Source: a virus
DNA length: 25,275 nt
Strand: one strand, 5' to 3'
IMG/VR virus record: IMGVR_UViG_3300035190_000771
Span: 1 to 25,275 of that record
The translations under genes and the position numbers were made by a program. Below the pieces are notes generated by a model that saw only the letters and a list, made by a program, of their open reading frames with translations, made no database searches and was not told where the DNA came from. Each line of letters begins with the position of its first letter. The stretch's first letter is position 1. Below, in pieces: positions 18,341 to 23,951 of this stretch.

Positions 18341-18347
18341 TATTTAG
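18341..18347 (-). promoter_or_regulatory. CTAAATA motif overlapping a stop codon
   Basis: The minus strand reads CTAAATA across the TAA stop of the DUF3293-like gene, 14 bases before the ATG of the 42-residue gene, with the ribosome site between. It could be a late promoter with a very short leader, or a coincidence of stop-codon context. Confidence 0.25.
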
Positions 18348-19195
18348 GCATTTGCGTCAGACAAATCCTCGTAGATTGTGATCCACTTGGGGTCTTCATC
18401 GCGCCGTAGATACGCAGCCTTTGCAAAATTCCATTCTTCACGCTCTTGGATGCGGTATCCCTTGCGGTGTTTCTTAGAGAACTTCTTGGCAGAGGCTTCA
18501 TCATCAAAGTACTCGTAATTGCCTTGATCGTCCATGCCGCCCCAAACGCCACTAGAAGTCTTCCAGATGTCACCTGGACGGTGGCGTTGGGCAACCTTGG
18601 CTTCTGCTTCCTTGCCCTGCGCGGTCTGCTTGGCGGTGTCGGGCTGTACATTAAACACAAACTTCTTTTCGGCGTGTGCGCCCTTTTTGAGTTGCGAGAA
18701 GAAGTCTACAACCTTGTGCTTGGCAAGTTCAAGATTGTTCTGCCCCTCGCCCTTCTTGAAGCGCATCAGCACCTTGCCTACACCTGCTTCGTCATTGGTG
18801 CCAATGTAGTAGAAGTCCTGATCGTTCTTGTACATCACGGAGTGCTGACCGAATTGGCGACCCAAATCAATGATTTGCTTCTTTGTGATATTGGGAACCA
18901 AAATGCTTAATTCTTCATTGAAGCCTTCGTCGCCCTTGTATCCGCCGCGCAGTTCAATGTAGCCGTGACCCATTGCACGAATTGCCTTCTTGAGTTCATC
19001 GTGCTTGGCTAGATTCTCCTTGTCGGAGTTTGCACCACGGAACGCGCTCACAATACCAAAGTCCTTCTTGTCGTCTTCCACATATTGGAACACGCGGGAC
19101 AGTTTGGATTCAACCAAGGATACTTCCGTGATCGTCTTGTTGTTCAGCGATTCGCACAAGTCTTGAGCATTAAGATATTGGGTGAACTTTTTCAT
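18344..19195 (-). CDS. DUF3293-like protein
   Basis: A 283-residue protein. Residues about 43-135 (DFGIVSAFRGANSDKENLAK, then GHGYIELRGGYKGD, LSILVPNITKKQIIDLGRQF and GQHSVMYKNDQDFYYIGTN) follow the pattern I know as DUF3293: a short alpha/beta domain with a conserved Asn/Glu-rich start, a Gly-Tyr-x-Glu strand and a Gly-x-x-x-Gln-x-Ser/Ala-Val strand. The rest is Lys-rich, with a second small domain at about 205-265 (GDIWKTSSGVWGGMDDQGNY). Function is unknown. The ribosome site AAGGAG and a consensus T4 late promoter (19220-19227) precede it, so it is a late gene. The start overlaps the end of the deaminase gene by 26 bases. Confidence 0.78.
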   Translation of the reverse strand: MKKFTQYLNAQDLCESLNNKTITEVSLVESKLSRVFQYVEDDKKDFGIVSAFRGANSDKENLAKHDELKKAIRAMGHGYIELRGGYKGDEGFNEELSILVPNITKKQIIDLGRQFGQHSVMYKNDQDFYYIGTNDEAGVGKVLMRFKKGEGQNNLELAKHKVVDFFSQLKKGAHAEKKFVFNVQPDTAKQTAQGKEAEAKVAQRHRPGDIWKTSSGVWGGMDDQGNYEYFDDEASAKKFSKKHRKGYRIQEREEWNFAKAAYLRRDEDPKWITIYEDLSDANA

Positions 19196-22199: not shown

Positions 22200-22206
22200 T
22201 ATTTAG
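22200..22206 (-). promoter_or_regulatory. CTAAATA motif overlapping a stop codon
   Basis: The minus strand reads CTAAATA over the TAA stop of the 322-residue gene, 16 bases before the ATG at 22183. It is the same arrangement as at 18341 and 23547. As a promoter it would give a leader of about 10 bases that retains GGAG. Confidence 0.3.
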
Positions 22207-23171
22207 TAAAGTCCGTAGATTGAAATTTCTGGAGTTGCTACACCGCTATTGTTCGTACTAATCGTGAACGGAGCAATATCAAATAATTGAGATGAATTTG
22301 CGGGAACAATAAACGGAACAGACACAATATTGTAATGATCAGGACTTGCCGCACCCACGGTTGTAGTACTGGATCCAATACCAGTAATAAATTTATTCCA
22401 ATTAGTAGATGTGGGTAAATACGAACCAGGCACAGTACCTTCAATTAATTGCGCTCCCCAAAACACTATTTGTGCTGCGGGTGGAGATCCGCTACCAGAT
22501 CCAAATGCAATATTTTCAAAAGCACTACCTGATCCTTCGTTTGACACAAATGTCCACGACACACGAACGGGAATTTCCGACAGTTGAAAATCTGGAGAAA
22601 AAACACTGCCATTAAGTGATTGGCTGAAATACGAAATTCTCATAGTGGGTGAGGTGGTGTATGCACCGCCTCCAGAATCACCACAAGCCCAAACCGATGC
22701 TGTATAGATTACGCCTTTTGGTAAAAAACTTGTAGACGGGAATGGTTGATACACACCAGAACTTGCGCTCTGATTTTCGGTTCTTGTTATCACACCATTA
22801 GTACTTCCATCAGGCATCAGAATACGAGAATACCGAGCCTGACCTACTATTCCAGTAGTACCACCAGGATTCGTAGTACCAAAGTTAGACCACCCCCGAC
22901 CAGTTGTTGCACCCGCATAGATGTTTTCACTAAAGAAGAAAAAATTCTCAGCAGTGGCGCGTGGGCTGTCGTACAGATACGCATTAAAAGGAATACGAGA
23001 AGCGGTTCTGTTGGTAGCAAGAATTGCTCGCGCTTCTGTTTTACTGTTAATGGTACGAGCGTGATACCAGTTTTTATCTGCTCCTGATGCAAAACAATAG
23101 CCTCGTCCAACTCCATCAATAAAGTCAAACGCATACGCTTTGGAATAAATGTCTCGGTACAGGTCTGCCAT
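22203..23171 (-). CDS. Probable tail fibre/adhesin protein with carbohydrate-binding-like domain
   Basis: A 322-residue protein. Residues about 145-250 form a jelly-roll-like domain: GVIYTASVWACGDSGGG, RVSWTFVSN, then IVFWGAQLIEGTVPGSYLPT. The last pattern (W/F-G-A-Q-L-E/I-G, S-Y-x-P-T) is very common in phage virion proteins with carbohydrate-binding-like folds. The N-terminus (DFIDGVGRGYCFASGADKNW) may attach to the virion. The C-terminal 45 residues resemble the 83-residue gene downstream. The ribosome site GGAGGAAAG is strong, and it follows the tmRNA terminator. It is likely a receptor-binding or decoration protein; the exact place on the virion is unknown. Confidence 0.75.
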   Translation of the reverse strand: MADLYRDIYSKAYAFDFIDGVGRGYCFASGADKNWYHARTINSKTEARAILATNRTASRIPFNAYLYDSPRATAENFFFFSENIYAGATTGRGWSNFGTTNPGGTTGIVGQARYSRILMPDGSTNGVITRTENQSASSGVYQPFPSTSFLPKGVIYTASVWACGDSGGGAYTTSPTMRISYFSQSLNGSVFSPDFQLSEIPVRVSWTFVSNEGSGSAFENIAFGSGSGSPPAAQIVFWGAQLIEGTVPGSYLPTSTNWNKFITGIGSSTTTVGAASPDHYNIVSVPFIVPANSSQLFDIAPFTISTNNSGVATPEISIYGLY

Positions 23172-23203: not shown

Positions 23204-23230
23204 AGAAAAGGGAGCCTTGCGGCTCCCCTT
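23204..23230. terminator. Terminator at 3' end of tmRNA
   Basis: A 7-bp stem GGGAGCC/GGCTCCC (23210-23216 and 23221-23227) with a GCAA loop on the minus strand, followed by TTTTC; on the plus strand it is followed by CTTTC. It ends the tmRNA precursor before the fibre-like gene. Confidence 0.8.
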
Positions 23231-23541
23231 TCAGCCCGTTCAGATGCGGGAGGGCTAGTCCCCACGGCTTCAAGCCGCCATTGCTAGTTTGTTAGCAATT
23301 ATTGTTGCAGCAGTTTTTTTAACGAGGATCCACTACACGCCTCGGGCATCTCCTGCTTCAGTACTCCGCACCAGTCGATTCCGTATCGACCCCGTATTTT
23401 TTGCCCCCGCTGCAAACGGAGGGCTTGACTGCGGGAAGAGGCGGGTGATGCAGTCACTCCGCATTCGCGCATCTTTGTAATGGAGTCGGGGGGAGTCGAA
23501 CCCCCGTGCTGTATGCGTTTTCGTCCACGATCAACAATGCC
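23205..23541 (-). ncRNA. ssrA: Circularly permuted (two-piece) transfer-messenger RNA
   Basis: Read on the minus strand. Acceptor piece first: about 23541 down to 23481, with T arm GGGGG-TTCGACT-CCCCC (23505-23489), then CGACTCC and discriminator A. An 87-base spacer (23480-23394) follows. The coding piece begins at 23393 with GGGGTCG, pairing fully with CGACTCC and placing a G-U at position 3-70, the alanine identity pair. It continues with ATACGGAATCGACTGG, the conserved tmRNA D-domain. Distal helix 2 can form between ATGCC (23349-23345) and GGCAT (23541-23537). Pseudoknot PK1: CGAGG/CCTCG (23344-23340 with 23327-23323) and GTAGT/ACTGC (23336-23332 with 23314-23310). The tag reading frame and a further possible pseudoknot precede the terminator. 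No anticodon arm and no encoded CCA. With SmpB it would rescue stalled ribosomes and tag nascent proteins for proteolysis. Confidence 0.93.
23270..23296 (-). other. tmRNA tag reading frame (ANKLAMAA)
   Basis: The frame GCT AAC AAA CTA GCA ATG GCG GCT TGA encodes ANKLAMAA. The resume codon is placed at GCT (23294-23296) because AATAATT before it matches the E. coli context AATAGTC in spacing and because PK1 ends 13 bases upstream. An earlier GCA in frame would give ATIIANKLAMAA. The Ala-Asn start and the A-x-A-A end are typical of tags. The stop lies in a CGGCT/AGCCG hairpin, as in helix 5 of other tmRNAs. Confidence 0.8.
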
Positions 23542-23546
23542 GTAAG

Positions 23547-23553
23547 TATTTAG
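23547..23553 (-). promoter_or_regulatory. Late-type promoter for tmRNA
   Basis: The minus strand reads CTAAATA across the TAA stop of the upstream gene. A start 6-7 bases downstream falls at about 23541-23540, exactly the first base of the helix-2 strand of the tmRNA acceptor piece. This is the best argument that CTAAATA works as a promoter here. Confidence 0.5.
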
Positions 23554-23951
23554 GCTGGCTCTAGCATTTCGTCTTCGCGGTACTGCCCTCTCCACGCAGC
23601 AAGGGGAATAAACAGGTGCCCCACCTGATTGTCCCACACCCACCATCCACCGCTGACTTCCGCGCAGTACAGCAGCATCTGCCCCTCTGTGGTGTCTTGA
23701 CGCAACGCCAAGTTCCACAGGTAATGCTCTAGTCCAATCATCCACCCTGAGCCGTAGTACTCTTCGCTCAGGTCGCGCATGATGCGTAGCAAAATTTGTT
23801 TATGGATTTCGCGGTCGCTTATTCGCCCGTAGGCGCGGTTTCCGCTTGGTGGCTTTTCTTTCAGGCTTGGCTTTTCCGAAAACAGCCTCCCAACCAGCGT
23901 CCCAAGCCACGCGATCAACCTTCCGATACGAGTCACCTTTTCCTGCGCCAT
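23550..23951 (-). CDS. Protein of unknown function, 133 residues
   Basis: A short N-terminal amphipathic or hydrophobic segment (IGRLIAWLGTLVGRLF) is followed by a Lys/Pro-rich linker and a Trp-rich domain (YGSGWMIGLEHYLWNLALRQ, then SGGWWVWDNQVGHLFIPLAA). The aromatic-rich half suggests a folded alpha/beta domain. The ribosome site GGAAGG lies 5 bases before ATG. It is the gene directly upstream of the tmRNA and its stop overlaps that gene's promoter motif. No family is recognised. Confidence 0.7.
   Translation of the reverse strand: MAQEKVTRIGRLIAWLGTLVGRLFSEKPSLKEKPPSGNRAYGRISDREIHKQILLRIMRDLSEEYYGSGWMIGLEHYLWNLALRQDTTEGQMLLYCAEVSGGWWVWDNQVGHLFIPLAAWRGQYREDEMLEPA

Follow-up and report, generated by a model that had tools for sequence, protein, structure and literature searches.

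The stretch of viral DNA analysed here (the window, 25,275 nt) carries a permuted (two-piece) tmRNA gene on its minus strand at positions 23541-23204. We are confident that the locus as a whole is best explained as a working, phage-owned, circularly permuted ssrA gene that acts in trans-translation late in infection via host partners. The gene itself, its structure, its conservation, its tag frame and a promoter-like box are directly supported. The Rfam permuted tmRNA model RF04321 matched the window at 71.2 bits (E 4.3e-12, gathering cut-off 47 bits) and ARAGORN made a permuted call (tmRNA*) with the tag ANKLAMAA. The original prediction of a circularly permuted tmRNA in a phage had proposed searches of this kind and named the lack of any above-threshold model match as its refutation; such a match was obtained, and the prediction is borne out by both programs, by covariation and by synteny in relatives.

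Architecture of the two-piece gene

Along the minus strand, on which all features below lie, the acceptor (3') part comes first, followed by an intervening segment and then the coding (5') part, and the locus holds acceptor, T arm, inter-piece helix P2, PK1, tag frame, PK2 and a terminal hairpin. A coding piece with PK1, tag frame and PK2 is typical of two-piece tmRNA architecture (PMC3985003). The 3' (amino-acid acceptor) piece, placed from the RF04321 alignment at 23541-23481, contains the P2 strand GGCAT (23541-23537, same alignment), the T arm (23505-23489, 100% paired in 14 copies and covarying), the acceptor 3' strand CGACTCC (23488-23482) and the discriminator A (23481), with CCA not encoded and TTA next. 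The intervening segment (23480-23394), which is presumed to be removed during processing, is hypervariable among relatives; its place in the arrangement had been predicted correctly, and its length is 87 nt rather than the predicted 88 bases.

The 5' (coding) piece (23393-23204, from the RF04321 match at 71.2 bits and the beta_tmRNA alignment) comprises the acceptor 5' strand, D-domain, P2, PK1, tag, PK2 and terminal hairpin. Its acceptor strand GGGGTCG (23393-23387) forms seven pairs with CGACTCC. All seven pairs and the G3-U70 alanine determinant had been foreseen, and the positions given for CGACTCC, the discriminator A and G1 of GGGGTCG (23393) were right; the G-U pair (alignment columns 89/220) is invariant in 14 copies. 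The P2 strand ATGCC (23349-23345) pairs with GGCAT and joins the two pieces, with compensatory changes at 5/5 pairs and 100% of cells paired in 14 copies. PK1 (23344-23306) has two stems, CGAGG/CCTCG (23344-23340 and 23327-23323), which is 100% paired in the alignment and covaries, and TGTAGTGG/CTGCTGCA (23337-23330 and 23313-23306), with 8 pairs in the window. PK2 (23263-23233) likewise has two stems, GGGG/TCCC (23263-23260 and 23251-23248) and AGCCC/GGGCT (23256-23252 and 23237-23233), the latter compensatory at 3/5 pairs; in the copy alignment PK2 is missing from two relatives, L108 and L109. The piece closes with the hairpin GGGAGCC-GCAA-GGCTCCC followed by TTTTCT (23227-23204, from the beta_tmRNA alignment), which has covarying pairs and is a probable terminator, and which a simple terminator scan did not flag as one.

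An explicit structure of 61 pairs, every one of which forms in the window, was scored for covariation on 14 aligned copies (that of the window and 13 from related phages). Cells were paired in 91.7% of cases and 22/61 pairs had changed on both sides (compensatory). With partners slid by 1-3 columns, 41-49% of cells were paired and 0-7 pairs had double changes, and 0/500 shuffles matched the observed values for paired cells or double changes. Because the window sequence was the source of the structure, the paired-cell share leans in its favour; the compensatory changes are not explained by that alone. The second stem of PK1 was 45.7% paired in fixed alignment columns; taken sequence by sequence it formed 8 pairs in both the window copy (shuffle p 0.04) and that of the relative L107 (p 0.002), and was no better than shuffles in several other rows.

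The intervening segment is the least conserved part of the gene. One relative (L091) is short of about 64 nt of it, which the near-identical tmRNA of L097 retains, and in L108 and L109 it measures less than 20 nt; this variability fits a segment that would be removed during maturation. A riboswitch, like the one reported beside the ssrA of phage Melnitz, was sought in it with Rfam, and no riboswitch match was found. Weak Rfam matches to Atu_C8, sX4, mascRNA and SAM-II lay far under their own cut-offs and were rejected.

Tag frame, promoter-like box and proposed action

The tag frame (23296-23270, ARAGORN) reads GCT AAC AAA CTA GCA ATG GCG GCT TGA, or ANKLAMAA*. Tags across relatives are ANRMAMAA, ANRLAMAA, ANKLAMAA, ANQLAMAA and ANNTLALAA (ANQLAMAA, ANNTLALAA and some others were translated by eye from the alignment) and always end in A(M/L)AA; in one relative (L105) ARAGORN gives a longer frame, ATTMIANKLAMAA, whose last eight residues are the same. 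Changes in the tag among relatives are mostly third-position (synonymous) or conservative, as expected for a translated tag. A 6-pair hairpin, TTGCTA/TAGCAA (23298-23281), spans the resume codon and tag and is compensatory at two pairs in relatives; judged by eye, the tmRNAs of phages Melnitz and BUCT-ZZ01 might form comparable short hairpins.

A T4-late-promoter-like TAAATA box (23552-23547) lies 11 nt before the RNA and is conserved in relatives. TAAATA stands 11-12 nt ahead of the RNA in 13/14 copies, the exception (L104) having TAGATA, and persists even in copies in which no upstream frame, long or short, terminates at it. The T4 late promoter, TATAAATA, was the reason for testing this hexamer; compared by sequence only, the window box CCTAAATA has 6/8 letters of that consensus. 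In the window TAAATA ranked first among hexamers 15-45 nt before gene starts, with an uncorrected p of 1.3e-4 that would fail correction for all hexamers. A sigma-70 promoter search found none. The conserved box suggests that the tmRNA is likely transcribed late in infection; a late-infection role had been proposed in the original prediction, the "late" of which draws support from this box.

From these features we infer the timing of transcription, processing, charging, SmpB use, tagging and benefit to the phage. Late in infection, a T4-type late promoter would give a short transcript running from about 23545-23541 to the hairpin near 23204. The 87-nt intervening segment would be excised by RNase P and 3' processing enzymes of the host, CCA would be added to the acceptor piece and the two pieces would be held together by the acceptor stem and P2. 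The RNA would then be charged with alanine by virtue of G3-U70, bind host SmpB, enter ribosomes stalled on broken messages and append ANKLAMAA, so that ribosomes would be recycled and truncated proteins targeted for degradation. We found no SmpB gene among 18 related contigs, which as fragments are not proof of absence; with CCA not encoded, this implies that host SmpB and a CCA-adding enzyme would be needed. The phage presumably relies on its host for SmpB, RNase P and alanyl-tRNA synthetase.

Two other roles can be considered. The lineage may have fixed a specialised late-infection tmRNA, with a late promoter, a covarying hairpin that covers the resume codon and a short 8-residue A-N-x-(L/M)-A-M-A-A tag without the acidic stretch that host tags usually have, and this tmRNA would redirect tagging. 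We regard this as unlikely; if true, redirected tagging could evade host adaptors or alter the fate of tagged proteins, beyond what an extra host-like tmRNA would do. Less probable still, and in our view distinctly doubtful, is that the RNA acts as a decoy: by binding SmpB or stalled ribosomes it would lower host trans-translation rather than perform it. The same has been proposed for mycobacteriophage DS6A, whose tmRNA has no tag and little besides a tRNA-like domain, and tmRNA is inhibited by a similar RNA (PMC4131195); the lack of an SmpB gene in the 18 contigs also means that host SmpB must be drawn on. However a decoy would have no need of the tag frame, stop codon and first PK1 stem, which are conserved, or of the A(M/L)AA end kept throughout.

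Conservation and descent in the phage lineage

The window encodes gp32 and baseplate hub and wedge genes. We searched 48 related viral records, gathered as relatives through either gp32 or the gene that follows the tmRNA, and RF04321 scored above its cut-off in 19 of them, including one from nearly the same phage as the window (G001). Most relatives are fragments and none is classed as at least 90% complete. All gp32 records (16/16) whose sequence upstream of gene 32 exceeds 10 kb carry the tmRNA in the same orientation, 8.2-13.4 kb away, although some of these 16 are identical at the tmRNA gene and so not all are independent; the gp32 records without a tmRNA all have less than 10 kb upstream. 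Distance between tmRNAs tracks distance between gp32 sequences (Mantel r 0.82, permutation p 0.0002, 13 records), which argues that the tmRNA gene has descended with the lineage.

These results bear on whether the locus could be a host gene, captured recently or in decay, that lacks a function in the phage. Phages can acquire ssrA, a common integration site (PMC9004378), but the same site in 16/16 testable relatives, divergence congruent with gp32, the compensatory pairs and the lack of an integrase among the window proteins searched make this very improbable, and we consider it largely refuted. That the similarity is fortuitous, or that a tRNA fragment was mistaken for tmRNA, is barely conceivable: the T arm by itself is tRNA-like and there are a few weak tRNA-like cross-hits with the cyano model, but the whole-model E value of 4.3e-12, the agreement of two independent programs, the matches in relatives and covariation in both pieces refute it.

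A DNA search of a phage collection at 1e-5 found nothing similar to the locus. The gene directly downstream of the tmRNA (22203-23171, minus strand) is strongly divergent among relatives L091-L108; its product is about 80 aa (MSYLFNEA...) in several of them, against 310-340 aa in the window phage and those closest to it, and that of the window has no match in Pfam or PHROG. Elsewhere in the window the protein of 18344-19195 (minus strand) has matches to DUF3293 and to the S-adenosylmethionine lyase family (PF23780, E 7.7e-10), a family known for phage anti-restriction enzymes.

Known phage tmRNAs, subtype and host

Two-piece tmRNAs are already published in phages, including in the T4-like phage Melnitz, so the locus is not a new kind and the novelty implied in the original prediction was overstated (PMC9004378 and our own detections). 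ARAGORN has identified 53 two-piece forms among 133 unique phage tmRNA structures, mostly aquatic (PMC9004378), and the latest database holds 79 unique sequences of phage tmRNAs, all forms included (PMC11915505). We detected permuted tmRNAs with RF04321 in Melnitz (113.4 bits), HTVC008M (90.6 bits) and BUCT-ZZ01 (111.9 bits), the window copy lying farther from the model by score than all three; none was detected in Syn33, P-SSM7, phiM12, ACP17 or V45v66.

Melnitz, a Methylophilales phage, resembles the window phage in being T4-like (Kyanoviridae) with a circularly permuted ssrA and TAAATA before the RNA. It differs in its tag (ANDNYVPVDYALAA), in encoding CCA and in having an alpha-like tmRNA, reported to adjoin a glutamine riboswitch (PMC9004378). 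Its record (MZ577097.1) has a perfect T4 late box, TATAAATA, just before the tmRNA, with TAAATA at -11 in the matching place. The Melnitz ssrA promoter was called early by its authors, who had looked for early promoters with BPROM (PMC9004378); we see the box as late-type, at odds with that reading, and the conserved box in the window lineage points to a late-infection role, the opposite of the early one proposed for Melnitz. In the Melnitz group only 17/47 contigs carry a tmRNA (PMC9004378), whereas in the window lineage the two-piece tmRNA is a fixed, syntenic feature of one T4-like lineage: a real, conserved phage RNA that is probably expressed late.

HTVC008M (Pelagibacter phage) and BUCT-ZZ01 (Synechococcus phage) are also T4-like with permuted tmRNAs, for which the record features listed hold no annotation; their tags are ANFNEYALAA and ANDETFSMALAA respectively and both, unlike the window, are without an upstream TAAATA box. 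The tmRNAs of the mycobacteriophage Bxz1 group and Bacillus phage G have the standard one-piece form. These phages are unrelated to the window phage and share with it a phage-borne ssrA (PMC4131195).

The original prediction also proposed searches with the alpha, cyano and beta models, and none passed its own cut-off, only the general RF04321 doing so. Beta_tmRNA (RF01850) gave 47.7 bits over the full model length at 23204-23584 (cut-off 84 bits), cyano_tmRNA (RF01851) 28.0 bits (cut-off 70 bits) and alpha_tmRNA (RF01849) 23.1 bits as a partial match (cut-off 50 bits). The beta model came top, always below its cut-off, in every copy for which it and another clade model were reported, and the subtype is thus nearest beta, though under the beta cut-off. 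The betaproteobacterial model includes the tag and the terminal hairpin, arranged as in the window; the window differs in its tag of only 8 aa, in not encoding CCA and in its score below 84 bits.

The host may be betaproteobacterial or cyanobacterial, the tmRNA being a hint only as an indicator of host range. That it narrows the host range, as had been suggested, is not clearly so, given that the clade models are all sub-threshold and that the tmRNA class of Melnitz differs from that of its host (PMC9004378). The window's gp32 is closest to Synechococcus phages and Melnitz comes first in the match list for gp5. No photosystem genes were found in the relatives searched, which is not decisive for cyanophage status because the cyanophage BUCT-ZZ01 was also without them in the same search. 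A scan of bacterial genomes with a 5'-piece pattern returned only the one-piece tmRNA of Streptococcus and a Planctomycetales contig, nothing two-piece, and thus no host source. The match in the latter, a MAG contig (WVZU01000191.1, 1845-1867), has neither a tmRNA nor an Rfam call near it and may reflect chance, phage DNA or a fragment.
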